A DNA stretch of 64,000 nucleotides from NCBI GenBank assembly GCA_904830895.1, contig LR882958.1:4421501-4485500 (forward strand), in the 5' to 3' direction. This stretch comes from Planktothrix rubescens CCAP 1459/22. GTDB taxonomy: Bacteria; Cyanobacteriota; Cyanobacteriia; Cyanobacteriales; Microcoleaceae. A program made the position numbers and the translations under genes. Positions 3,280 through 47,738 of this stretch are shown piece by piece (positions within the stretch are counted from its first letter, which is position 1; each line of letters starts with the position of its first letter). The notes beneath the pieces were generated by a model. It did no database searches. It saw nothing but the letters and a program-made list of their open reading frames with translations, and had not been told where the DNA came from.

Positions 3280-5001
3280 ATGCGGGAATATTTTCCGATT
3301 TTAGATTGGGGATTAAATTACAAACGAGACGATTTAACCGGAGATTTAACCGCCGGAATTATTGTGGCGAGTTTATTAATTCCCCAGGGAATGGCCTATG
3401 CAATACTGGCAGGTTTACCCCCAGAAGTGGGACTCTATGCCAGTATTTTTCCTCAGATTGTTTATGGGTTTTTGGGAACAGCTTCCATGCTATCTGTAGC
3501 TCCGGTGGCGGTGGATTCTTTAATGGTAGCAACGGCCGTTAGTGCGATCGCAACCGAAAACACACCGGAATATTGGGGGTATGCTTTAACCTTAGCCTTA
3601 ATGGTAGGAGTTATTGAACTCTTGATCGGGATTTTCCGGTTAGGATTTATAGCTAATTTCCTTAGTCAAGCGGTAATTTCTGGGTTTATTAGTGCGGCGG
3701 CGATTTTGATTGGATTTAGTCAAGTTAAGCATTTATTGGGAATTAAAATTCCTCAGACTGAATCATTTTTTACTACAGTTATTTATATTATTAAAGAAAG
3801 TCCTAATCTAAATCTAGTAACTTTTAGTTTAGGAATTATTAGTCTAGCATTATTATTATATTTTAATCGCGGCTTAGGAAAACATCTTAAATCCCAAGGA
3901 ATTCAGGAATCTCTGATTATACCGATCACGAAAAGTGCCCCTTTAATGGTAGTGATCGGTAGTTCAATATTAGTGGGATTATTACATTTAGATCAATTAT
4001 TTGGAGTTAAAGTGATCGGAGAAATTCCTAAAGGGTTTCCACCTTTTACTATACCTAATTTTGATTTAAACCAAATTCAATTATTAGGAACTTCTGCCTT
4101 AGCTATTAGTTTTGTTGGCTTTATGGAAGCCTTTTCTGTCGGTCAATTTTTAGCTAGTAAAAAACGCAAAAAGGTTGAAGCAAATCAAGAATTAATTGCT
4201 TTGGGAGCCTCAAATATAACGGCTGCATTCACCGGAGGTTATCCGATCACAGGAGGGTTAAGTCGTTCTGTGGTTAACTTCTCCGCCGGAGCAAATACAG
4301 CCTTAGCCTCAATCATTACGGCGTTATTTTTGATGTTAACAGTTTTGTTTTTTACTCCTTTATTTTATTATTTACCGCAAACAAGTTTAGCTGCAATTAT
4401 TTTAGTCGCCGTTGGCAACTTACTCGATTTTGCCACTCTTAAACGGTTATGGAATTATAATAAACTCGATGGAATTACTTGGGTTAGTACCTTTATTGCG
4501 GTGTTGCTAACAAGTGCAGAACAGGGAATTATTTTGGGAGTATTAATTTCTCTAGTTTTATATTTATCACGAACCAGTAAACCCCATATTGCTGTTTTAG
4601 GACGGGTGGAAAATACGGAACATTTTCGCAATATTTTACGACATCCGGTAACGACTAGCCCCCATATTTTGGCGATAAGAATTGATGAAAGTTTGTATTT
4701 TGTAAATACTAAATATTTAGAAGATTATTTATTAAAACTGGTAACAGAACAGAAAGAAGTCGAATATTTACTGTTAGTTTGTAGTGGGATTAACTCGATT
4801 GATGGCAGTGCTTTAGAAACCCTACAACGTCTGATAGAAGATTTACACCAGATGAAAATTGAGTTTTATCTTTCTGAGGTCAAAGGCCCAATTTTTGATC
4901 AATTAGAAAAGGTGGGATTTGTGGATAAATTGGGACGCGATCGCATTTTTTTAAGCACCGATCAAGCAATAAAAGAATTATCTCAACGGGTTTCCCTTTA
5001 A
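3280..5001 (+). CDS. SulP family anion transporter with STAS domain
   Basis: 573 aa. The start follows a GAGG ribosome site 6 nt upstream. The N-terminal transport domain carries the SulP signature PQGMAYAILAGLPPEVGLYAS and about 10-12 hydrophobic segments; a cytoplasmic STAS domain occupies roughly residues 440-560. The signature resembles the sulfate-permease branch more than BicA bicarbonate transporters, and the co-oriented rhodanese 10 nt upstream also favours sulfate. The transported ion remains an inference. Located in the cytoplasmic membrane. Confidence 0.9.
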   Translation: MREYFPILDWGLNYKRDDLTGDLTAGIIVASLLIPQGMAYAILAGLPPEVGLYASIFPQIVYGFLGTASMLSVAPVAVDSLMVATAVSAIATENTPEYWGYALTLALMVGVIELLIGIFRLGFIANFLSQAVISGFISAAAILIGFSQVKHLLGIKIPQTESFFTTVIYIIKESPNLNLVTFSLGIISLALLLYFNRGLGKHLKSQGIQESLIIPITKSAPLMVVIGSSILVGLLHLDQLFGVKVIGEIPKGFPPFTIPNFDLNQIQLLGTSALAISFVGFMEAFSVGQFLASKKRKKVEANQELIALGASNITAAFTGGYPITGGLSRSVVNFSAGANTALASIITALFLMLTVLFFTPLFYYLPQTSLAAIILVAVGNLLDFATLKRLWNYNKLDGITWVSTFIAVLLTSAEQGIILGVLISLVLYLSRTSKPHIAVLGRVENTEHFRNILRHPVTTSPHILAIRIDESLYFVNTKYLEDYLLKLVTEQKEVEYLLLVCSGINSIDGSALETLQRLIEDLHQMKIEFYLSEVKGPIFDQLEKVGFVDKLGRDRIFLSTDQAIKELSQRVSL

Positions 5002-6042: not shown

Positions 6043-6184
6043 CCGCATATTGGCTTGGACTGACGAGGCTTGGGACAATTATATTTACTGGCAAAATCAG
6101 GATCGAAAGACTCTCAAAAAAATTAATAAAATTATCAAAATTTGCCCACCTTACCCCTCTATTTCAAGAAAATTTATTCTATAA
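6035..6184 (+). pseudogene. Truncated yoeB-type toxin
   Basis: 49-codon ORF overlapping the antitoxin stop. The first about 35 residues (MSNRILAWTDEAWDNYIYWQ..., then KTLKKINKIIK) are an excellent YoeB N-terminus. After that the sequence turns into an unrelated ICPPYPSISRKFIL tail and stops. Full YoeB is about 85 aa and needs Glu46, Arg65 and His83 (E. coli numbering) for ribosome-dependent mRNA cleavage. All three lie in the lost part, so the toxin should be inactive. Confidence 0.8.
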
Positions 6185-6219
6185 TCTTACTAAGAAGAAA
6201 TTTCAGAGAAAGAAATCAA

Positions 6220-6492
6220 ATGACTAAATTAATACAAGAAACCTTTGAGCAAATTTCACGGCTTCCTGAAGAGCAACAAAATACTCTTGCAATATATCTA
6301 CAGAAGCATCTGGATGAATTTTTACAAAAAGCTGAGAAAGAAAAGCGGATTGAAGAAGAAACTTATACGATTAATGATTTCAACGAGGAAACACAACAAG
6401 CAATCAAGAATATCGAAGAACAACAAAACTTAACAGTTTGCAATAATAAAAATGAGCTTTATAATGAATTAGGTATTTTGCGTAAGTCCTGA
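6220..6492 (+). CDS. Small antitoxin-like hypothetical protein, 3' end altered
   Basis: 90 aa from the ATG at 6220, preceded by a purine-rich AGAGAAAGAAA ribosome site; an upstream in-frame start at 6142 is not supported by composition. The protein is helical and highly charged (QISRLPEEQQNTLAIYLQ, then EKEKRIEEE), like RelB/DUF2281-style cyanobacterial antitoxins. The last residues (LRKS) are encoded by the 16-bp repeat at 6478-6493, so the natural stop was probably replaced, and no toxin gene follows. The gene product may still be made. Confidence 0.6.
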   Translation: MTKLIQETFEQISRLPEEQQNTLAIYLQKHLDEFLQKAEKEKRIEEETYTINDFNEETQQAIKNIEEQQNLTVCNNKNELYNELGILRKS

Positions 6493-8781: not shown

Positions 8782-8926
8782 TCTGTAGGGGTGGGGTTCT
8801 CCCGCCCTTGCTCATTTATCAGTGTAAGAGTTAATAGCATTGGTGTTATGCGATCGCACGCAATCAAAAACTAATCGCCACCTTTAGGGATGGAGTTTCG
8901 TAGATAATATTTCTATTAGCTTCCGC

Positions 8927-10702
8927 TTATGTACTGGGTGCTTTCATAAGGAAGCAAATCTCTCCCTCATCAACCTTTTTTTGTAGTTTTCGCTTGGCAT
9001 TTTGAGTCAATTTTAAATCAGTGGCTAGTTCATCCAAATTTTTATAAAATTTACTCATTCTAAGTTGCATCAACTTATCGATTTTTGTTTCTCTCATTCT
9101 AGTTCCGTGAAAAGCATTAACGATTAAATCTTTTTCAGCAGTATTAATATCCACACATTTAGTAGGAATGGGTGGAGTAATTACCTTTAAATCTTTTTCA
9201 GCAGTATTAATATCCACACATTTAGTAGGAATGGGTGGAGTAATTACCTTATCAGACTGTATAAAACAGATGTTTTTAAGCTCTAGTTTTCGCTGCAAAA
9301 GAGAAGGAGACGAAGGAGCAATTATAAAGGCAAGATCAGGTGGTGTACCATCAGTAGTTAAAGGTCTAAATTTCACATCTTCCAACCATTGATTAAAAGT
9401 TTCTAGATGACTACTTAAAAGTTCATAGTTTTTCGCTTCGCCAAAGGCTCTAGCAACACAGGTATTGTTGTGATCTAATTGTATATAACAATCGAAAGCG
9501 TGACCTTGAAGTACAGTTGTCGTGGAAACTGAAGATAAAGTATATGATTTGTTTTTGAGATGGGTTTGCCACTTATGCTCACATTGCGCTTTTACTAAAT
9601 CACGTGCATTTCCTTCAAAACCTTTTTCAGATTCTTCTCTAAAATGCTTTTCATGTATCTCTAGAACTGCTGTCGCGTATTCTTTACAAAAGCTTCTCAA
9701 GTTTTGAGCCGGATTCAACGGTATATTCTGGATTTCCTGCCATGCTTGAGAAAAATTTTTATATCCTTTAAAAGCTCCTTCTATACGTGCATCAATTTTA
9801 GCTCTGATCATTTCAAATTCATTTCCGTATCCTTTGTTTAGATTAATAACTGAATTTCCAACGAGGCTTTCTATCACAGAATCTTCATTAATGAAACTCT
9901 CTATATTATTTGATGTTCCAACAAGATAAATCAGAAGACGAATTTTTGAACGAAATTGTTGAGATGCTCTCTTAATTAAAGCTTTTATAAGAGATCTTGT
10001 TTCCTGAAGCTCATTAGGATAGTTTTGCAATGAATCTAATTCATCAATTAAGTAGGCAAAAGTAAATCGTGGTTCTATCCTTGATATTTGATTAATTACT
10101 TCAAAAAAGAATTCTTCAAAAACCACTTCAATTTTAGCAAAGTAGCTACTAAACTTAGAACGAAAGGGCATGAACTTAGTTGCTGATGTTAATTGGGCAA
10201 CTTCAGATTGCTCTAGATAATCATTGAGTATGTTCCTTGCTATATCTTTGATTTGTTGAGATGAACTATTCAATAATTCCCAAAAAGTTTGAGCTAGAAT
10301 GTAACAATACAATTTTACAGTAAAACCCTGATTTCCACCTGTCATCAGTAAATCAGAGAGTTGAAAACGGCGGGCAACAGAAAAACTTTCGTAAGTTAAT
10401 TTAGCCTTAGTTAATTCGTGTAAATAAGTGAGCAAAGAAGTTTTACCACTTCCTACTAAAGCTGCAACAAATCTAAAAGTAAAATATCCGTCATCGAAAG
10501 TATGCCGAAGATCGTCTTCAAGTAGTTCAGTAATATTACTAATTGGTCTTCCAGATAAACTTGGTGCAGTAGATCCCTCACCTGTTGAGCCTGGAAGTCT
10601 AACAACACGCTCAATCCAAATATCTTCAATAAATCCTTCACCTGCTTTAACTCTTTGAAGGAAGTCTTTGATAAATTTCTTTTTTCCGGCATCTTCAGGC
10701 AT
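8927..10702 (-). CDS. P-loop ATPase with possible PD-(D/E)XK nuclease region
   Basis: 591 aa, not matched to a named family. Walker A is LVGSGKTS (82-89), Walker B YLIDELD (218-223), and a sensor-like IYLVGTSN follows at 258-265, the layout of a STAND/archaeal-type ATPase. Near residues 402-424, AFDCYIQLD is followed by FGEAKNYE, a spacing that could be the D...ExK core of a restriction-type nuclease. A 21-residue segment is duplicated in tandem at 485-505 and 506-526. The C-terminus (LDELATDLKLTQNAKRKL) is helix-turn-helix-like. The gene begins 3 nt after a winged-helix gene on the same strand, so the two form a pair. A defence or DNA-handling role is inference. Confidence 0.75.
   Translation of the reverse strand: MPEDAGKKKFIKDFLQRVKAGEGFIEDIWIERVVRLPGSTGEGSTAPSLSGRPISNITELLEDDLRHTFDDGYFTFRFVAALVGSGKTSLLTYLHELTKAKLTYESFSVARRFQLSDLLMTGGNQGFTVKLYCYILAQTFWELLNSSSQQIKDIARNILNDYLEQSEVAQLTSATKFMPFRSKFSSYFAKIEVVFEEFFFEVINQISRIEPRFTFAYLIDELDSLQNYPNELQETRSLIKALIKRASQQFRSKIRLLIYLVGTSNNIESFINEDSVIESLVGNSVINLNKGYGNEFEMIRAKIDARIEGAFKGYKNFSQAWQEIQNIPLNPAQNLRSFCKEYATAVLEIHEKHFREESEKGFEGNARDLVKAQCEHKWQTHLKNKSYTLSSVSTTTVLQGHAFDCYIQLDHNNTCVARAFGEAKNYELLSSHLETFNQWLEDVKFRPLTTDGTPPDLAFIIAPSSPSLLQRKLELKNICFIQSDKVITPPIPTKCVDINTAEKDLKVITPPIPTKCVDINTAEKDLIVNAFHGTRMRETKIDKLMQLRMSKFYKNLDELATDLKLTQNAKRKLQKKVDEGEICFLMKAPST
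9125..9250. repeat. Perfect 63-bp tandem duplication inside the ATPase gene
   Basis: Two adjacent identical 63-bp units (9125-9187 and 9188-9250). Because 63 is a multiple of 3, the frame is kept and 21 residues starting KVITPPIPTKC are doubled. No substitutions separate the copies, so the duplication is recent. Confidence 0.95.
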
Positions 10703-36886: not shown

Positions 36887-38233
36887 ATGGAACTTGATTT
36901 ATCTCGCTTTTTTAAAGCTTCTAATCCGGCTGAAACCCTGGATGTAGAAAACCCGGAAGATCAACAATATTATATTGATTTTTCTCCTGCACGCGGTGGT
37001 AAACTGATTGAACAAATTTCCCGAACAATTACTCGTTTATCACCCGATCGCCCTACTTGTCAACTCTTTACAGGTCATGTTGGATCAGGAAAGTCAACGG
37101 AATTACTCCGACTTCAAGCTCAACTCAAAAAAGAAGGATTCCATGTCGTTTATTTTGAGTCTAGTAAGGATTTAGACATGGCGGATGTGGATATTACCGA
37201 TATTTTATTAGCGATCGCCCGTCAAGTCAGTGAAAGTATTGAACTCCTACAAATTAAATTAAAACCTAAAGGCTTTAAAAGTTTACTCAGTGGAGTGATC
37301 GGGGTTTTAAATACAGAAATTGATTTAAAAGGAGATGTTAATGTTCCCGGAATTGGGACGTTAGCTGCAAGTACGGAAGGGGAGTTTTCCCTTTCAATGG
37401 GAATTGGGAATATTACGGCTAAAACCAGGGACAGTCGAGATTTAAGGTCTTTATTGCGTCAATATTTAGAGCCTCGAACTAATAATATTTTAGAGGCAAT
37501 CAATAAAGAATTATTGGAACCATCGATCCAACAATTGAAACAAATGGGGAAAAAGGGGTTGGTCGTAATTGTTGATAATTTAGACCGGATTTTGGATAGC
37601 CAAAGCAGTACCGGACGCCCACAACCGGAATATTTATTTATTGATCGGGGTGAACAACTAAATAAACTCAATTGTCATGTTGTCTATACTATTCCCCTCG
37701 GTTTGATTTTTTCTAATAATTTAGGACAACTGATGAATCGCTTTGGTAGCGACCCGAAAACCTTACCAATGGTGACGGTAAAATTTGAAGATGGAACTCG
37801 CTGCGAAGCCGGAATTGAACTATTACGCCAAATGGTAATGGCGAGAGCATTTCCGGGTATTGATCCGAAAGAATATCCAGACTTAGTAACAAGTATTTTT
37901 GACACTCCTGACACTTTAGATCGACTTTGTACGATTAGTGGCGGTCATGTTCGCAGTTTATTAATTTTGTTATATAGCTGTTTGCAAAAAGAAGATCCTC
38001 CATTAACTAGAAAATCCTTAGAGGAGGTGATTTTACAACGTCGCCACCAATTAACCTTAGCTATTGAAGCAGATGAAAGAGAAATGTTACGTCAAGTAGC
38101 AGTAACTAAAAAATTAAGTGGTCAAATGGAATATCAAACCCTATTAAGAAGTTTATGGGTTTTTGAATATCATCAAACCGAACATTTTTGGTATGATATT
38201 AACCCAATTTTAGCAGAAGCTCAGGAATTTTGA
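36887..38233 (+). CDS. P-loop ATPase (KAP/STAND-like)
   Basis: 448 aa. Walker A is GHVGSGKSTELL (63-74), and Walker B is LVVIVDNLDRIL (about 224-235). The surroundings YFESSKDLDMADVDITDILLAIARQ, plus a Gly-rich insert after about 150, match a type of stand-alone cyanobacterial AAA ATPase. A helical C-terminus follows (EVILQRRHQLTLAIEADE). No effector domain is fused. Its position next to the J-domain gene may be functional, but this is not known. It is followed by 577 nt of repeat-rich, gene-free DNA. Confidence 0.8.
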   Translation: MELDLSRFFKASNPAETLDVENPEDQQYYIDFSPARGGKLIEQISRTITRLSPDRPTCQLFTGHVGSGKSTELLRLQAQLKKEGFHVVYFESSKDLDMADVDITDILLAIARQVSESIELLQIKLKPKGFKSLLSGVIGVLNTEIDLKGDVNVPGIGTLAASTEGEFSLSMGIGNITAKTRDSRDLRSLLRQYLEPRTNNILEAINKELLEPSIQQLKQMGKKGLVVIVDNLDRILDSQSSTGRPQPEYLFIDRGEQLNKLNCHVVYTIPLGLIFSNNLGQLMNRFGSDPKTLPMVTVKFEDGTRCEAGIELLRQMVMARAFPGIDPKEYPDLVTSIFDTPDTLDRLCTISGGHVRSLLILLYSCLQKEDPPLTRKSLEEVILQRRHQLTLAIEADEREMLRQVAVTKKLSGQMEYQTLLRSLWVFEYHQTEHFWYDINPILAEAQEF

Positions 38234-38336
38234 TCACGGATTTAGAAGGATTACACGGATTACACGGATTTTTTTGATGTTTTTAGATGGATTGTAAGGA
38301 TTTTAGGAGGGTGGGCATAGCCCACCTTATTTTTAA

Positions 38337-38359
38337 ATCGAAATATATAATGTTTTCAT
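38337..38359. repeat. 23-bp direct repeat, left copy
   Basis: ATCGAAATATATAATGTTTTCAT-type sequence (ATCG then AAATATATAATGTTTTCAT), identical to 41462-41484. The two copies enclose about 3.1 kb with three genes: ATPase, TOPRIM-like and Uma2. Confidence 0.9.
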
Positions 38360-38604
38360 GTCGTGTTACCAGAGATTGCCTCAACAATCATTTTCTCAAG
38401 TTTGTGATTGGGCGATCGCTATTTCATCCAACTACAAATATTCTCAGATGATTTGATGTGTTTTAGAGAGCGATGGTCGCTTGGACTCTAATCTGATAGG
38501 AGTTCACCTGAGCGATCTGCAAAGCAAATTAGAACAAGTGAAAAAGTTTTTTTCATTTCGCTTGCTCAACTAATGTTTTACATTTTGGTGTAAGATCAAT
38601 ACCC

Positions 38605-38712
38605 CGGACAGTTTTTGAGTAAAAGCCTAGACCCCTTATTCTACCGTTAGCGATCGAGGCTAAACGAAAGCCTGAACCCCTTATTCCACCGTTGGCGATC
38701 GCAAACTGTCCG
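38605..38712. repeat. MITE-like element with inverted ends and internal tandem repeat
   Basis: The ends are CGGACAGTTT (38605-38614) and its inverse AAACTGTCCG (38703-38712). Inside are two 35-bp direct repeats (38622-38656 and 38667-38701), about 45 bp apart and differing at four bases, each ending in a GCGATCG box. Confidence 0.75.
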
Positions 38713-38810
38713 AAGTGTTGTAAGACGAAGCAATCCACCAAAACTTAACTATTTTTTAGATTAAGATTAAAGTGTTTTAGGTCAACTACCTAGTATAGGG
38801 AAAGAAAAAA

Positions 38811-39983
38811 GTGCAATTAAAAGAAATAAAGATTTCCCGTTTTAAGAATCAACCTGATGAGTGGTCAATTGAAGGGAAACCTCTAAATAATGAATTTGGA
38901 CAATGGCTCTCTTTCGTTGGGATGAATCTCATCGTAGGGAAAAATGCAACAGGCAAAAGTAAAACAATCGATGCCATACGCCATATTGCAGACCTATTTT
39001 GTGGGGATGTGCAAATATCCCGGCTTAATTCATTAGGCTTTGGAACTACTGAATATAATTTAAGGTTCGATAGTGATGAGGGAGAAATACAATACTATTT
39101 GGATTTCAAAGATGGGAAAATCATTCAGGAGACTTTAACGGTTAATAATGTAGAAAAGTTAAACCGTACTGAAGGGATTCTCTGGTATGAGGGAGCTGAG
39201 AAAAAATTAGCTTTTGAGACAGATGATGATGTATTAGCTGTATCAAAAAGAGATAAAAAACAACATTCTTTCTTTGAAACGTTATATTCTTGGGGGAAAA
39301 ACTTAAATTACTATCCTTTTGGGGCTCCATTAGGTAAAAATGCTTTTCTAAAAGATATAAATCTGGTCAAATATGATAGTGACGAAGTAGATTTAAAAGA
39401 TGGTGATGAAGTAACTCGAATTTTTTGTATGGGGGAGAAGCAATTTCCCGATTTATTTGTAAATACCATACTTGAGGATATGAAAGCAATTTCATACGAT
39501 CTACAAAAAATAGAAGTAAGTCCCTTAAAAAAATTTCCTATTCCTGCATATGGCTTAAATGTACAAGAGAGAGATTTAGAGGTTATTACAGATCAGACAG
39601 AAATGTCTCAAGGAATGTTCAGGGCTTTATCACTCCTTGTGCAACTCAATTATTCTTTGTTAAGCAAGACTCCAAGTTGCATTTTGATTGACGATATCGG
39701 AGAAGGATTAGATTACGATAGATCGAATAGCCTTATTGAACTTATTATTGAGAAGATAAAAGATTCATCTGTCCAAGTTATCATGACCACAAATGATAGA
39801 TTTGTAATGAATAAAGTTCCTTTGGAATATTGGTCTGTTATTCAAAGAATACCCAAAAAGTCTTTATTTTATAATTATAGAAATTCTAAATCAACTTTTG
39901 AAGAATTTCAACGTACAGGGCTTAATAACTTTGATTTCCTATCCTACGAATACTACATTGAAGATTTTGAAATTGAAGAATAA
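38811..39983 (+). CDS. ABC/OLD-type AAA ATPase (AAA_21)
   Basis: 390 aa with a GTG start (MQLKEIKISRFKNQPDEW). Walker A is GKNATGKSK (43-51). A signature-like MSQGMFRALSLLVQLNYSLL lies near 265-283, Walker B is CILIDDIGEGLDYD (about 287-300), and an H-loop-like VIMTTNDRFVMNKVP follows. These are hallmarks of the ATPases that pair with TOPRIM nucleases in OLD, PARIS, AbiL and Septu-like systems. The DUF4276 gene begins 2 nt after the stop, so the two form an operon. A phage-defence role is inferred. Confidence 0.85.
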   Translation: MQLKEIKISRFKNQPDEWSIEGKPLNNEFGQWLSFVGMNLIVGKNATGKSKTIDAIRHIADLFCGDVQISRLNSLGFGTTEYNLRFDSDEGEIQYYLDFKDGKIIQETLTVNNVEKLNRTEGILWYEGAEKKLAFETDDDVLAVSKRDKKQHSFFETLYSWGKNLNYYPFGAPLGKNAFLKDINLVKYDSDEVDLKDGDEVTRIFCMGEKQFPDLFVNTILEDMKAISYDLQKIEVSPLKKFPIPAYGLNVQERDLEVITDQTEMSQGMFRALSLLVQLNYSLLSKTPSCILIDDIGEGLDYDRSNSLIELIIEKIKDSSVQVIMTTNDRFVMNKVPLEYWSVIQRIPKKSLFYNYRNSKSTFEEFQRTGLNNFDFLSYEYYIEDFEIEE

Positions 39984-39985
39984 CC

Positions 39986-40723
39986 ATGAAAAAAATTACT
40001 TTTTTTGTTGAAGGACAAACAGAACAGCTTTTTATAAATAAGCTACTCATAGAAATAGCAGGACAAAAAAATATTTCAGTTGAACTAGAGCAATTTCAAG
40101 GTTATGGAAGAAGACCTACAAAAAATATTTATCCTAAAACAGCTTCAAATCCAGTTTCTCCTAAGCATTATGCTTTGATTCACGATTGTAGGAGTGATAG
40201 CAGTGTAAGATCAAGAATTATAGACAACTATCAGACATTATTTTCACAAGGGCATACTCAAATAATTGGTCTGTTAGATTTTTATCCGCAAAATCTATGT
40301 CCAGAAACGAACTTAACTCAATTTGAAAATGAGTTGATAAATGGTACTGTAAAACGAAATCGCCAAGTAACTCCGCCTTTACCTGCTAACACTGCAATTG
40401 TGGTGGCTGTGAATGAAATTGAGTCGTGGTTCTTATCTGAATGCAATCACTTCACCTGTGTTGATGCGATTCTGACAAACTCTTTTATAGTATCAAGAGT
40501 AGGCTTTGACCCTTGTATTGATGATATGACTTTACGCTCCCATCCAGCCCAGGATTTACATGATATCTATCAGCTTGTAGGTAAAGCATATAAAAATAAG
40601 AAAAAAGATACCGTAGAAAGAACTATAGAATGTTTGGATTATGCAAATATTTACATAAAAATCGCAAGTAAAATAACAAAATTAAACGATTTAGTTTCAA
40701 TAATCAATACATTTTTGACATAA
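39986..40723 (+). CDS. DUF4276/TOPRIM-like protein
   Basis: 245 aa. The N-terminal FFVEGQTEQLF (Glu9) is the first TOPRIM motif, GLLDFYP (Asp98) fits the DxD position, and VVAVNEIESWFLS (143-151) fits the DUF4276 EIE(A/S)W motif. The fold is related to the metal-dependent TOPRIM nucleases of OLD/RloB. It follows the ATPase by 2 nt (ATPase stop at 39983, ATG at 39986). In known pairs the ATPase senses a trigger and releases the TOPRIM effector. The specific system name cannot be assigned; AbiL is one close type. Confidence 0.8.
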   Translation: MKKITFFVEGQTEQLFINKLLIEIAGQKNISVELEQFQGYGRRPTKNIYPKTASNPVSPKHYALIHDCRSDSSVRSRIIDNYQTLFSQGHTQIIGLLDFYPQNLCPETNLTQFENELINGTVKRNRQVTPPLPANTAIVVAVNEIESWFLSECNHFTCVDAILTNSFIVSRVGFDPCIDDMTLRSHPAQDLHDIYQLVGKAYKNKKKDTVERTIECLDYANIYIKIASKITKLNDLVSIINTFLT

Positions 40724-40804
40724 TAAAGAATTCGATATGTCAAGATTATCTATTTCACCCTTACCTCACATTGTAAAGCGATCACACTTTAGATTAATAA
40801 TTTT

Positions 40805-41428
40805 TTAAAAAGTCTTCAAAATTTCTGCGGCTGTCAATTTTAGGTTAGGGAAAGTAGTCGAAATAACTATCTGATTGCCACGGAATTGCTGAATTTCATA
40901 CTCTCCATTTGCTAGTGTGCAGATAGAGAGAGTAGGCTGTTTGGACTTCCCAATATGTCGAACCCCTCCCAATCCAGCGTAGTCGGCAATCCAATATTCG
41001 GGAATGCCCAGAGTTGCATAGTCTTCAACTTTACGGGCATAATCATTTTGCCAGTTGCTACTCACAACTTCCGCTACAAATTTAATTGAACTGCCTAGGG
41101 TCAGAATTGACTGCTCACTCCAAATTGGTTCTTTAGTAAGCTCATGTCGGTCAATAACTGCCACATCGGGTCGAAATGCAGTCATTCCCATGTTAGAAGG
41201 GCGAATAAGTCCTCGCTGAAGCACAAACCAAGGCAATCCCATTTGGTCGATTTGGACGCATACCTTTGTGGTAATAAAGGCTGCAACTTCTTCATGCAAG
41301 CCTGTTGGTTCCAAGTCAAATATATCTCCATCAATAAGTTCATAACGGTTATCGTCACGATAAGTAACGATAAACTCGTCAAAGCTGAGTGCTTTCTGTT
41401 GAATTGGTCGGTCGGTTGCGATTGGCAT
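40805..41428 (-). CDS. Uma2 family endonuclease-like protein (DUF820)
   Basis: 207 aa. The PD-(D/E)XK-type core has FRPDVAVID (Asp), FVAEVVSSN (Glu) and the downstream DYARKVEDYATLGIPEYWIAD (Lys). The family is highly expanded in cyanobacteria, and its biological role is unclear. The gene is convergent with the DUF4276 gene (81 nt apart) and lies inside the 23-bp repeats. It need not be part of the defence pair. Confidence 0.88.
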   Translation of the reverse strand: MPIATDRPIQQKALSFDEFIVTYRDDNRYELIDGDIFDLEPTGLHEEVAAFITTKVCVQIDQMGLPWFVLQRGLIRPSNMGMTAFRPDVAVIDRHELTKEPIWSEQSILTLGSSIKFVAEVVSSNWQNDYARKVEDYATLGIPEYWIADYAGLGGVRHIGKSKQPTLSICTLANGEYEIQQFRGNQIVISTTFPNLKLTAAEILKTF

Positions 41429-41461
41429 ATATCAACTTATCCCAATTAATACATTCATTAT

Positions 41462-41484
41462 ATCGAAATATATAATGTTTTCAT
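41462..41484. repeat. 23-bp direct repeat, right copy
   Basis: Same 23 bases as 38337-38359. It lies 50 nt upstream of aroE and may contain part of the aroE promoter (TATATAATG). Confidence 0.9.
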
Positions 41485-41533
41485 ATTCTTGGGATCACCA
41501 CTATAATCAAATAGATATTGAATTCCCGTTATT

Positions 41534-42397
41534 ATGATTAAAGGCACAACCAAACTATTAGGAGTAATCGGTGATCCGATTGCACATTCCCTTTCTCCGG
41601 TGATGCACAATGCCGCGATCGCCCATTTAGGAGTGGATTATGTTTATCTGCCATTTGCCATTTCTCCTAATCATTTAAAAACCGCCCTCGATGGATTTGC
41701 AGCTATTGGAATTCAGGGATTTAATATTACTATTCCCCACAAACAAGCGATTTTACCCTTTTTATCGGAAGTGACAACCCTGGCCCAGTCCGTCGGGGCG
41801 GTGAATACTGTTTGGCGGACTCATAAGGGTTGGAGTGGCACCAATACCGATGTTGTGGGTTTTCTGACTCCCCTAGAGGTGTATCATCAACATTGGCATG
41901 ATCAAGTGGCCGTGATTTTGGGATATGGCGGGGCGGCGCGGGCGGTGGTGGCTGGATGTGCCCAGTTAGGGATCGGGGAAATTTATGTTGTCGGTCGTGA
42001 CCCCCAAAAATTGGCCACATTTCAACAGAGTTGGATCACTTCCCCCCTATCGGTTGCGGTCAAAACCTGTCCCTGGGAACAATTATCGAGTCTGCTTCCC
42101 CAAGCGGACTTATTGGTAAATACGACCCCGGTGGGAATGTATCCTCACGTTCAGGAGTCTCCCGTTGAGGCGTCGGTGCTGGATAAAATTAAATTGGGTG
42201 CGATCGCTTATGATTTAATTTATGTTCCTGAAACCACCCAATTTTTGACTTTAGCAGGGGCTAGAGGTGCGCTGATTTTAAATGGATTACCAATGTTAGT
42301 AATTCAGGGAGCCGCCGCCTTAGAATTGTGGTTACAGCAACCTGTTCCCGTCGAGATTATGCGTCAGTCTCTCCAACAATATCTAAATATAAAATAA
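41534..42397 (+). CDS. aroE: Shikimate dehydrogenase
   Basis: 287 aa. It reduces 3-dehydroshikimate to shikimate with NADPH, in aromatic amino-acid synthesis. The substrate-binding block SLSPVMHNAAI and the catalytic Lys in NITIPHKQA are present, and the NADP loop is GYGGAARAVVAG, followed by NTTPVGMYP. The length is normal. The hypothetical exported protein starts 12 nt downstream in the same direction, so the two may be cotranscribed. Confidence 0.95.
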   Translation: MIKGTTKLLGVIGDPIAHSLSPVMHNAAIAHLGVDYVYLPFAISPNHLKTALDGFAAIGIQGFNITIPHKQAILPFLSEVTTLAQSVGAVNTVWRTHKGWSGTNTDVVGFLTPLEVYHQHWHDQVAVILGYGGAARAVVAGCAQLGIGEIYVVGRDPQKLATFQQSWITSPLSVAVKTCPWEQLSSLLPQADLLVNTTPVGMYPHVQESPVEASVLDKIKLGAIAYDLIYVPETTQFLTLAGARGALILNGLPMLVIQGAAALELWLQQPVPVEIMRQSLQQYLNIK

Positions 42398-45959: not shown

Positions 45960-47738
45960 ATGTCTAAAACGCTGATTAAAACTCAGACGGTGGAATGGAA
46001 AGACCTTAACTGGCGCAAGCTGGAAAGGGTAACTTTCAAGTTGCAAAAGCGCATATTTCAAGCGAGTGAACGAGGCGATGTTAAAGCAGTTCGTAAACTT
46101 CAAAAGACCCTGATTAATTCCTGGAGTGCTAAATGTATTGCGGTTCGCAGGGTAACACAAGATAACCAAGGCAAAAATACGGCTGGAGTAGATGGAATTA
46201 AATCTCTTACCCCAAAGCAACGTATGAACTTGGTAGGACGATTAAAGTTAACCAATAAGGTAAAACCAACTCGCAGAGTTAATATTCCCAAACCTGGTAC
46301 AACAGAAACCCCCCCCCAAGCCCCCCATGCACGGGGGGTTTGGGGGGGCGGAATACCCACAATCAACGACCGCGCATTGCAAGCGTTAGTTAAACTAGCG
46401 TTAGAACCAGAATGGGAGGCTAAATTTGAGCCAAACAGTTATGGTTTCAGACCAGGACGTTCCTGCCACGATGCAATAGGAGCAATATTTTTGAGTATCA
46501 GATACAAGTCCAAATATGTATTGGATGCTGATATTGCCAAATGCTTCGACCGCATAAACCACAAAGCATTAATCTCCAAGATAAACACATACCCTACATT
46601 AAGCCGTCAAATTCAAGCGTGGCTAAGAGCAGGGTACATGGACGGAAAAGAACTTTTTCCTACTAATGATGGTACACCACAAGGCGGGGTAATTTCACCC
46701 TTACTTGCGAATATTGCCCTACATGGTATGGAAGAAAGAGTCAAGCAATACGCCGAAACTCTAAAAGGGAAACAAAACAAACAGCATAAACGTGAATCCC
46801 TAAGTTTAATCCGTTACGCCGACGATTTCGTAATAATCCATGATGATTTAAACGTAGTCAAAAAGTGTCAAGAGATAATTGCAAAATGGTTAAGTGACAT
46901 GGGATTGGAATTAAAACCAAGTAAAACAAAATTAACCCACACCCTCAATAAAATTGATGGAAATGTTGGGTTTGAGTTCTTAGGATTCCATATACAACAA
47001 CACAGAGTAGGCAACTACCGATGTGCGAACAACACGCACGGAACACCGCTAGGTTTTAAGACATTAATCACACCCTCAAAAGCCAAAGTTAAAACTCATC
47101 TTGTCAATATAGCTGAAGTAATAGATACCCATAAGACAGCCCCACAAGCTGCTTTAATTAGCAAGCTAAATCCAATTATTAGGGGTTGGTCAAACTATTA
47201 CACAACAGTGGTTAGTAAAGCAACTTTTTCAAAAGTAGATACACTAACCTACGATAAGTTAAGAGCATGGGCAAGAACGAGGGGAAAAGGGAGCATCAAT
47301 AAAGACAAATACTGGAGAACAGTAGGCGATAAAGATTGGTGTTTCAGTACAGAAGACGGAATAGAATTATTCAACCACGCCAGTACGCCAATCGTAAGGC
47401 ATACAAAGGTCAAAGGAAAGGCTAGTCCGTTTAATGGAGACTGGATTTACTGGAGTAAACGAAGGGGCGAATATCCTGAAACTCCTAGCAGAGTTTCCAA
47501 ATTAATCAAAAAACAAAAGGGTATTTGTCCTCACTGTGGTCTGTATTTCACAAGTACAGACATTGTAGAAGTTGACCATATTAAACCAACATCGTTAGGT
47601 GGAAAAGACACCTACGATAACCTTCAACTTTTACATAAACATTGTCACGACATAAAAACGGCTCACGATGGTTCCTTAACTAAAAATAAGGTTAATCCCT
47701 TAGAACAAGTCGAGAATTACGACCTCAATCCGTTTTGA
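45960..47738 (+). CDS. ltrA: Group II intron reverse transcriptase/maturase with HNH endonuclease domain
   Basis: 592 aa. RT motifs are present: PNSYGFRPGRSCHDAI, DADIAKCFD, GTPQGGVISPLLANIALH and the catalytic IRYADDFVI (near residue 284). The maturase X domain is about 385-480 (KLNPIIRGWSNYY), and the C-terminal HNH domain has CPHCG, EVDHIKP and HKHCHD (about 521-563). A C-rich palindromic repeat at 46309-46348 has been inserted in frame at the RT-1 motif, replacing the usual KRPLGIP by PPQAPHARGVWGGGIP. This may reduce or abolish activity. The start is at the first ATG after the domain IV entry. Confidence 0.9.
   Translation: MSKTLIKTQTVEWKDLNWRKLERVTFKLQKRIFQASERGDVKAVRKLQKTLINSWSAKCIAVRRVTQDNQGKNTAGVDGIKSLTPKQRMNLVGRLKLTNKVKPTRRVNIPKPGTTETPPQAPHARGVWGGGIPTINDRALQALVKLALEPEWEAKFEPNSYGFRPGRSCHDAIGAIFLSIRYKSKYVLDADIAKCFDRINHKALISKINTYPTLSRQIQAWLRAGYMDGKELFPTNDGTPQGGVISPLLANIALHGMEERVKQYAETLKGKQNKQHKRESLSLIRYADDFVIIHDDLNVVKKCQEIIAKWLSDMGLELKPSKTKLTHTLNKIDGNVGFEFLGFHIQQHRVGNYRCANNTHGTPLGFKTLITPSKAKVKTHLVNIAEVIDTHKTAPQAALISKLNPIIRGWSNYYTTVVSKATFSKVDTLTYDKLRAWARTRGKGSINKDKYWRTVGDKDWCFSTEDGIELFNHASTPIVRHTKVKGKASPFNGDWIYWSKRRGEYPETPSRVSKLIKKQKGICPHCGLYFTSTDIVEVDHIKPTSLGGKDTYDNLQLLHKHCHDIKTAHDGSLTKNKVNPLEQVENYDLNPF
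46309..46348. repeat. C/G-rich palindrome inside the intron reverse transcriptase
   Basis: A run CCCCCCCCAAGCCCCCC, ATGCAC, and GGGGGGTTTGGGGGGG form a stem of about 15 bp with one wobble. It is the same class of repeat as the insertion in cobN at 13217-13391. Confidence 0.88.

Follow-up and report, generated by a model that had tools for sequence, protein, structure and literature searches.

The 64-kb stretch analysed here (the window; all positions are counted from its first letter) belongs to the 5.7 Mb genome of the cyanobacterium Planktothrix rubescens CCAP 1459/22. Upstream of aroE it carries a foreign segment which includes an ABC-type ATPase gene of the OLD/AAA_21 kind followed, 2 nt further on, by a gene for a TOPRIM-like protein with the DUF4276 domain. 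Judged by its sequence relationships, this pair is a divergent variant of the OLD-type ATPase with a separate TOPRIM partner, and we consider it likely to be a horizontally moving two-gene anti-phage module working in the manner of PARIS and AbiL. The features of the locus are as follows.

36887-38233: conserved NTPase gene, left neighbour of the segment
38333-41487, no strand: foreign segment at the site upstream of aroE, about 3.15 kb, with limits taken from flank homology with relatives
38337-38359, plus strand: left copy of the 23-bp repeat R
38360-38410, plus strand: X, which runs on from R as in the relative G047 (contig C55)
38411-38474, plus strand: Y', a piece of the interspersed repeat Y (88% to Y of G047), with an octamer of the highly iterated palindrome HIP1 from 38412
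38412-40783, plus strand: unit common with Dolichospermum sp. UHCC 0259, minus 38600-38715
38600-38715, no strand: insert of 116 bp with terminal inverted repeats, resembling a miniature inverted-repeat transposable element (MITE); similar pieces occur elsewhere in the family
38811-39983, plus strand: OLD/AAA_21-type ABC ATPase gene, GTG start, 390 amino acids (aa); proposed sensor
39986-40723, plus strand: DUF4276 TOPRIM-like gene, 245 aa; proposed nuclease effector
40805-41428, minus strand: Uma2 gene, a passenger, probably outside the pair
41462-41484, plus strand: right copy of R, which is sequence from upstream of Uma2
41534-42397: aroE, right neighbour of the segment

An earlier note on this DNA had described the ATPase and TOPRIM-like genes 2 nt apart with a Uma2 gene behind, between exact 23-bp repeats upstream of aroE. 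The coordinates of the open reading frames (ORFs) agree with this layout, the Uma2 gene being on the minus strand, and the two R copies are identical over 23/23 bp (26/27 when stretched to 38333-38359 and 41458-41484), while 100 dinucleotide shuffles of the window gave a mean of 0.00 matches.

The two proteins and their relatives

The ATPase scores 48.9 bits against Pfam AAA_21 (cut-off 27). Residues G43, N45, G48 and K49 and the stretches MSxGMxR and DDIGEGLDxxRS are invariant in 12 aligned sequences; they correspond to Walker A (G43-K49), the signature (MSxGMxR) and the Walker B/D-loop (DDIGEGLDxxRS). TNDxxVM stands where a switch histidine would be. The partner matches DUF4276 (PF14103) with 33.5 bits, above the gathering cut-off of 30.2, and no other Pfam family up to E 0.1. 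Its invariant residues in 10 aligned sequences are E9-G10, E13, C68, D71, D98, E144, E146 and W148. In the predicted model (predicted local distance difference test, pLDDT, 86.7; predicted template modelling score, pTM, 0.86) strands are formed by residues 2-8, 30-36, 61-67, 90-99 and 136-142, and the acidic residues E9, D67/D71, D98 and E144/E146 lie at or just behind predicted strand ends. Motifs, the Pfam match and the predicted strand order are the grounds on which a TOPRIM-like fold is proposed. K49 and E9, which the earlier note had named for mutation, were located as claimed; they are the Walker A lysine and a TOPRIM-type glutamate.

Besides the pair in the window, the host contig C1 carries a second and a third ATPase-DUF4276 pair as well as a PARIS-like pair of ATPase and DUF4435 genes (about 1669-1671, 3784-3787 and 4119-4122 kb; loci L129, L130 and L132). 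Against one of the two DUF4276 proteins the partner profile gives a full-length alignment (P 2.2e-4, probability 45%), in which D98 is matched to the first D of a DLD; against the second it aligns over 29 columns only (P 0.027). The comparison with the AriB of the PARIS-like pair is unconvincing (P 0.03, 18 columns), and that with Uma2 gives P 0.33. The ATPase profile aligns with two other host ATPases in the region of Walker A (70 and 44 columns). At E<=0.001, profile A3 recovered nothing else from the host genome, despite the two further DUF4276 genes above the Pfam cut-off.

The closest copy of the pair is that of Dolichospermum sp. UHCC 0259 (L029), where 38412-38599 is matched at 88% (189 bp) and 38716-40783 at 95.5% DNA identity (2068 bp). 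Both limits of this homology fall at GCGATC(GC/AC), which is of the HIP1 type: GCGATCGC stands at 38412, and on the right side GCGATCAC faces GCGATCGC. There are 35 HIP1 copies in the 64-kb window. The ratio of nonsynonymous to synonymous substitution rates (dN/dS) against Dolichospermum is 0.14 and 0.26 for the two genes, indicating purifying selection. The Dolichospermum copy adjoins a DUF29 gene. It has no R (best 17/23 in 12.7 kb, with 17 in the control) and no copy of this Uma2 gene, another Uma2-like ORF lying about 4 kb upstream (by eye). The pair is therefore the transferred unit and, by these DNA comparisons, has moved between genera, whereas the Uma2-containing, R-bounded cassette that the earlier note had drawn is not what was transferred. 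Its broader proposal is supported to the extent that a defence-type ATPase-TOPRIM pair has moved horizontally and lies in a foreign segment ending at the repeats. The 116-bp MITE-like insert, which sits between Y' and the ATPase gene and contains an internal 35-bp duplication, is absent from the Dolichospermum copy.

The next-closest pairs come from metagenomic bins labelled Desulfatirhabdium (74%/63%) and Janthinobacterium (67%/49%). Other cyanobacterial pairs, including a diverged one in the same-species genome G045, are further off (about 38-45% and 30-44%). The window, Dolichospermum, Desulfatirhabdium and Janthinobacterium rows form one clade in the trees of both proteins, with support of 100/100 for the ATPase and 100/99 for the partner; L089 and L094 also group together in both (100/99). 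The ATPase tree has 31 rows (the broken or short L077 was left out) and the partner tree 27 (L032, L077, L078, L080 and L081 were left out).

Both genes are present in 32 of the 35 loci examined, always in the order ATPase-DUF4276 (32/32). The incomplete loci are L034 and L035, with an ATPase fragment only, and L079, with partner fragments only; another short ORF with a TOPRIM-like start was seen by eye near the fragment in L035. Searching the genome contigs with the ATPase gave 7 loci, five with both genes (one partner with a stop) and two with an ATPase fragment only. Six of the 32 two-gene loci are on viral contigs, with neighbours such as integrase (L091, L093), tail or baseplate genes (L091, L095), capsid (L090) and methylases (L092, L095). 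Among the close relatives, L030 lies beside an N6/N4 methylase and a BglII-type endonuclease, and L031 beside an N6 methylase. Among 72,556 plasmid records one matches the partner and two match the ATPase, and one pair-bearing plasmid was typed as conjugative. The 50,697 phage records gave 0 matches for either protein. In PHROGs the ATPase matches seven weak families (best 3.6e-9) and the partner none.

The aroE site and the origin of the 23-bp repeats

On the left flank, BLAST homology with relatives stops at 38241-38272 and can be followed by eye to about 38332, at a terminator-like stem which is also found in G052 (by eye). On the right, homology restarts at about 41488-41491 (against G047, by eye). 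Judged by eye, the foreign segment thus ends on both sides within a few bp of the R copies. An Rfam search of 38200-41600 gave no match up to E 0.1.

The aroE interval holds a DUF3122 gene in G045 (the same species) and G051, and a psbA-type gene plus a DUF3122 gene in G046, G048, G049 and G052; these genes were named by Pfam for G045 and G046 and by eye in the other relatives. G050 and G053 were excluded since their flanks are on different contigs. The window lacks the DUF3122 gene which relatives have in this interval. In G047 the interval (L038:1298-3311, contig C68) is occupied by a Septu pair (PtuA1 1.3e-163, PtuB1 7.3e-95). Two different ATPase-nuclease pairs are therefore found where most relatives have a DUF3122 gene, and we count the presence of Septu at the same site in favour of a defence role of the window pair. 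X-like sequence lies close to the far edge of the Septu pair.

R was absent from aroE in all seven usable relatives, the best matches (15-16/23 positions) equalling those of the reversed control. Within the host genome it occurs in two places only, allowing up to 3 mismatches, and at the same tolerance the 61 family genomes gave two matches in the host, one in G047 and one in G020 (3 mismatches), with four matches for the reversed control. At another locus of G047 (contig C55), which has no pair, the order is Uma2-R-X: by eye, the 40 bases left of R agree with those at the right R of the window in 38/40 positions, and the 40 bases to its right agree with those at the left R in 39/40. In G045 the same Uma2 gene has just the first 9 bases of R in its upstream sequence, cut off there by a mobile-element-like end. 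R therefore belongs to the region upstream of Uma2. A 23-bp target-site duplication at aroE was ruled out on the same grounds. The earlier note had regarded R as the aroE site through which a cassette enters or leaves, to be recognised by single-R empty sites in related strains; this was not borne out, as R is missing from 7/7 aroE intervals and is continuous with the Uma2 upstream sequence. The G045 Uma2 gene lies within an element (L044:6064-7019) whose terminal inverted repeats of 37 nt are imperfect and which has a TTAA at either end; the corresponding empty site, with a single TTAA, is present in the host genome.

It is unlikely, in our estimate, that the segment is an R-bounded mobile element, Uma2 included, which moves in and out as a one-R circle by recombination between the 23-bp copies. 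The coincidence of the segment ends with R would agree with such an element, and the Uma2-R-X join in G047 is the junction expected of a circle made from the window segment. Moreover, G047 carries at this locus an island with the order Y, GNAT-like ORF (below the Pfam cut-off), 207-aa ORF, X-like sequence, Uma2, R, X, Y, whose edges are two 122-bp direct Y repeats, 92% alike (L043:3293-3414 and 6160-6281). Its circular order is that of R-X-Y'-pair-Uma2-R in the window, opened at a different point. Against this stand the absence of R from the relatives' aroE intervals and its scarcity in the family, the Dolichospermum copy devoid of R and of this Uma2 gene, and the continuity of R with the Uma2 upstream sequence. 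As to the usual marks of an element bounded by attachment (att) sites, a single att copy in an empty site was seen in 0/7 relatives, and none of the three long ORFs between the repeats encodes a recombinase (the remaining ORFs of 62-101 aa were not scanned).

The two R copies are best explained, from the order of the sequences, by the Uma2 neighbourhood having been duplicated or opened from a circle, and the circular order shared by the window and the G047 island suggests a circle as an intermediate. The segment would then be a rearranged composite of the pair unit (38412-40783) and Uma2-locus sequence (R, X, Uma2, R), placed upstream of aroE in the position of the relatives' DUF3122 gene. The intermediate may have been a circular or tandemly duplicated Uma2 locus, moved by host recombination.

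Direct repeats around the pair in other genomes and the repeat Y

Direct repeats bracket the pair in a minority of other lineages too, each time with a different sequence; to this extent the earlier note's attention to the flanking repeats was justified. In L030 the pair is tightly enclosed by direct repeats of 91 bp, which are 90% alike and lie 2092 bp apart. The right one is the start of a HAD-hydrolase gene and the left one its truncated duplicate; judging from its neighbours (a DAHP-synthase-family gene and an LptC gene), this gene is kdsC-like. L083 has 57-bp direct repeats, 89% alike and 2020 bp apart, which are fainter in L084 and L088, while L073, L085 and L086 have a clear left copy only and L087 a mere trace. 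In Dolichospermum, 26-bp direct repeats (L029:5229-5254 and 8917-8942; 25/26, 3688 bp apart) are not tight around the pair. The 3.7 kb that they enclose hold two small ORFs besides the pair, and a HicA-like ORF lies next to this stretch. L031 and L082 have no bracketing direct repeats.

We think it unlikely that these are mere interspersed repeats which bracket the pair by coincidence. The flanks of 32 loci were compared, using 1.3 kb per side where available (464 bases on the left of L084, 505 on the right of L085 and 816 on the right of L090) and matches of at least 45 bits; the right repeat copy of Dolichospermum lies beyond the flank used. Direct matches within the same locus were found in 4/32 (L030, L083, L080 and the window) and inverted ones in 0/32. 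Comparisons between loci gave 8/992 matches, six of them between genomes of a single genus that have the pair at the same site, one viral-viral and one, unexplained, between L081 and L029. The L030 repeat is a duplicated and truncated 5' end of the next gene, and R has only two copies in its genome. In favour of coincidence, the 67-bp repeat of L080 is probably a common interspersed repeat, the Dolichospermum repeat contains HIP1 and adjoins another repeat family, and the unrelated control comparison of the L081 left with the L029 right flank also reached 77 bits. Overall, bracketing repeats of varying sequence seem over-represented, yet they occur in a minority of loci. Single-crossover integration of circles and template switching are candidate mechanisms, as is another process.

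The repeat Y, which starts at HIP1, was found in 18 places in 12/61 family genomes (L138-L145 included), or 15 loci once merged. PADLOC was applied to the neighbours at 7/15 loci (9 proteins), the window being an eighth, and gave defence matches at 4/7: Septu in G022, a type II restriction-modification system (BsuBI/PstI) in G034, AIPR/AbiU in G036 (contig C305) and a PbeA-like helicase (ResIII and HNH) in G039. No PADLOC match was obtained in G037 (Arr), G031 and G036 contig C579 (both GNAT), and Pfam gave DUF4238 for the Y locus of G035 (contig C270). In G037 and G031 full or partial Y lies on both sides of a small gene. The association of Y with defence genes, counted without a background rate, is a lead only. 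In Dolichospermum, too, a Y piece lies at the left edge of the shared unit. Y was rejected as an integron-type site on its folding, no integrase being sought: as DNA, the G047 Y folds better than its shuffles (z -3.2 and -2.9 for the two strands), whereas for the R-X-Y' stretch in the window z is -0.1.

We speculate, and hold it doubtful in this complete form, that the module moves as a unit of about 2 kb without a recombinase of its own, leaving direct repeats copied from the neighbourhood (27, 26, 57 and 91 bp), and that in filamentous cyanobacteria it may be exchanged, via circular intermediates, at the HIP1-containing Y which edges ATPase-TOPRIM, Septu, BsuBI-type restriction and AIPR/AbiU modules. 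A published study connects HIP1 with site-specific recombination in Synechococcus and states that there is no evidence of a link to homologous recombination (PMC4390886). If repeat-bracketed insertion is true, it would help to explain how small defence modules relocate without transposase or integrase, and this abundant cyanobacterial palindrome would gain a testable role as a recombination anchor. Direct repeats recurring without a recombinase may be the point that surprises specialists.

Relation to known defence systems and proposed function

OLD-type ABC ATPases with separate TOPRIM partners have been described as conflict systems (excerpts of PMC12839542 and PMC10568477). In PARIS, AriA is the sensor and AriB a tRNA-cutting TOPRIM protein (excerpt of PMC12409363). 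AbiL is a bicistronic abortive infection system with a toxic TOPRIM_OLD effector (excerpt of PMC10440598). A published rule for PARIS asks for an AAA_15 (at least 32 bits) or AAA_21 (at least 27 bits) ATPase with an adjacent DUF4435 gene of at least 27 bits (excerpt of PMC9122126). The window pair resembles PARIS in having adjacent genes, an AAA_21-type ATPase first and a separate TOPRIM-type partner, both kinds being found in prophages; the Pfam score of the ATPase exceeds the limit of the rule, and it matches the AriA model of PADLOC at 5.5e-16. It differs in its partner, which is a DUF4276 protein without DUF4435 in Pfam (to E 0.1) or AriB in PADLOC (to E 1), while the separate PARIS-like pair of the host (C1, about 4119-4122 kb) matches AriA at 2e-48 and AriB at 7.6e-26. 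AbiL has the same bicistronic layout, and AbiLi is the best PADLOC model of the ATPase (2e-20), in a partial match covering 52-251 of 326 profile positions; however, AbiLii (RloB/TOPRIM) is not among the 12 families matching the partner to E 1. Membership in PARIS and AbiL is thus ruled out, the required partner (DUF4435/AriB or AbiLii) not being matched. OLD, GajA of Gabija and the ATPase-Toprim effectors of retrons also combine an OLD-type ATPase with TOPRIM, in one fused protein as opposed to the two genes here.

By its partner, the pair is weakly nearest to HEC-01 of PADLOC (HEC, Hma-embedded candidate). The partner matches 12 PADLOC models to E 1, of which eleven are HEC-01B (6.7e-7) and the twelfth a weak Cas8; HEC-01A is among the matches of the ATPase, and Pfam DUF4276 is common to both. 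The two other host DUF4276 proteins have similarly weak HEC-01B scores (2.9e-11 and 2.8e-6). The HEC-01A score of the window ATPase (2.6e-11) is far weaker than the yardstick of another host ATPase-DUF4276 pair (5.9e-49). The phage-protection results given for HEC systems are for HEC-04 (excerpt of PMC12111858). No mention of DUF4276 was found in the open-licence papers searched, which is weak evidence of absence. The cassette had been called undescribed by the earlier note; that word is right only in part, as OLD-type ATPases with a separate TOPRIM are already described (excerpts of PMC12839542 and PMC12409363) and the HEC-01 candidate exists, of which this clade's partner matches the B models; the clade itself is a divergent variant.

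The defence reading draws on the constant pairing and order, the motifs, the shared clades, purifying selection, prophage and restriction-gene contexts and transfer between genera, all seen in sequence comparisons. By analogy with PARIS and AbiL we infer that the ATPase is a sensor of infection with a toxic nuclease under its control, so that the pair probably shuts the cell down when a phage enters. The ATP-bound assembly of the ATPase would sense infection and restrain the TOPRIM-like partner, which a phage trigger would release or activate to cut nucleic acid, the candidate substrates being tRNA (as for AriB) or DNA (as for OLD and GajA); growth would stop before the phage multiplies. The partner is broken beside an open ATPase gene in 4/32 loci (L032, L078, L080 and L081) and the reverse occurs in 0/32, with both broken in L077. 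Such a 4:0 pattern is expected if the partner is toxic. The pair would add a divergent ATPase-DUF4276 clade, viral contigs included, to the immunity based on OLD-type ATPases and TOPRIM, and the invariant residues of both proteins make a direct test easy.

Several observations weigh against this reading. The 4:0 pattern is small, most such loci came from searches that used the partner as query, and L032 is possibly an assembly error. Deeper joins of the two trees disagree: the ATPase tree puts the window clade with cyanobacterial pairs (93/90), the partner tree, weakly (60/78), with viral and plasmid rows. The partner has no canonical DxD, as D67 is N in 2/10 sequences and the residue two past D98 is Y, F or R, and no related solved structure was found (0 at E<=10). 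Matches to named families (HEC-01A, HEC-01B, AbiLi, AriA) are weak. Several cyanobacterial copies lie at one chromosomal site per genus and seem to have been inherited vertically, as a housekeeping module might also be.

Such a role, in which a RecF/Rad50-like ATPase and an M5/RecR-like TOPRIM protein form a chromosomal repair or cell-cycle module, seems improbable to us. The ATPase profile does resemble RecF/Rad50/SMC, the pair keeps a single site beside an AhpC/TSA peroxiredoxin gene within one cyanobacterial genus, and a cell-cycle role is reported for an archaeal OLD-class ATPase (excerpt of PMC12796447). Against it, the pair is rare and patchy, being found in 14/386 genomes of the phylum (with a single partner sequence as query and broken copies counted) and, by profile, in 11/61 genomes of the family and 2/10 of the genus; it has also passed between genera at 95% DNA identity and is cargo of viral contigs. 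A three-gene system including Uma2 is very improbable: the Uma2 gene lies 81 nt past the pair in the same segment, and in several cyanobacterial loci Uma2-like ORFs are seen, by eye, no more than about 4 kb from the pair (for example immediately upstream in L074, L076 and L081, and about 1 kb downstream in L084), but it is on the opposite strand, stands directly behind the pair in no other listed locus (by eye), and belongs to a kind common in these genomes, the same gene (95-97% DNA identity) being distant from any pair in G045 and G047.

A fourth DUF4276 match of the host genome, interrupted by an in-frame stop and below the Pfam cut-off, is located about 72 kb before the window (C1:4349395-4349706). 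Within the window, 45960-47738 codes for a group II intron reverse transcriptase/maturase with HNH, and similar copies are present on plasmids of Planktothrix agardhii and Oscillatoria.

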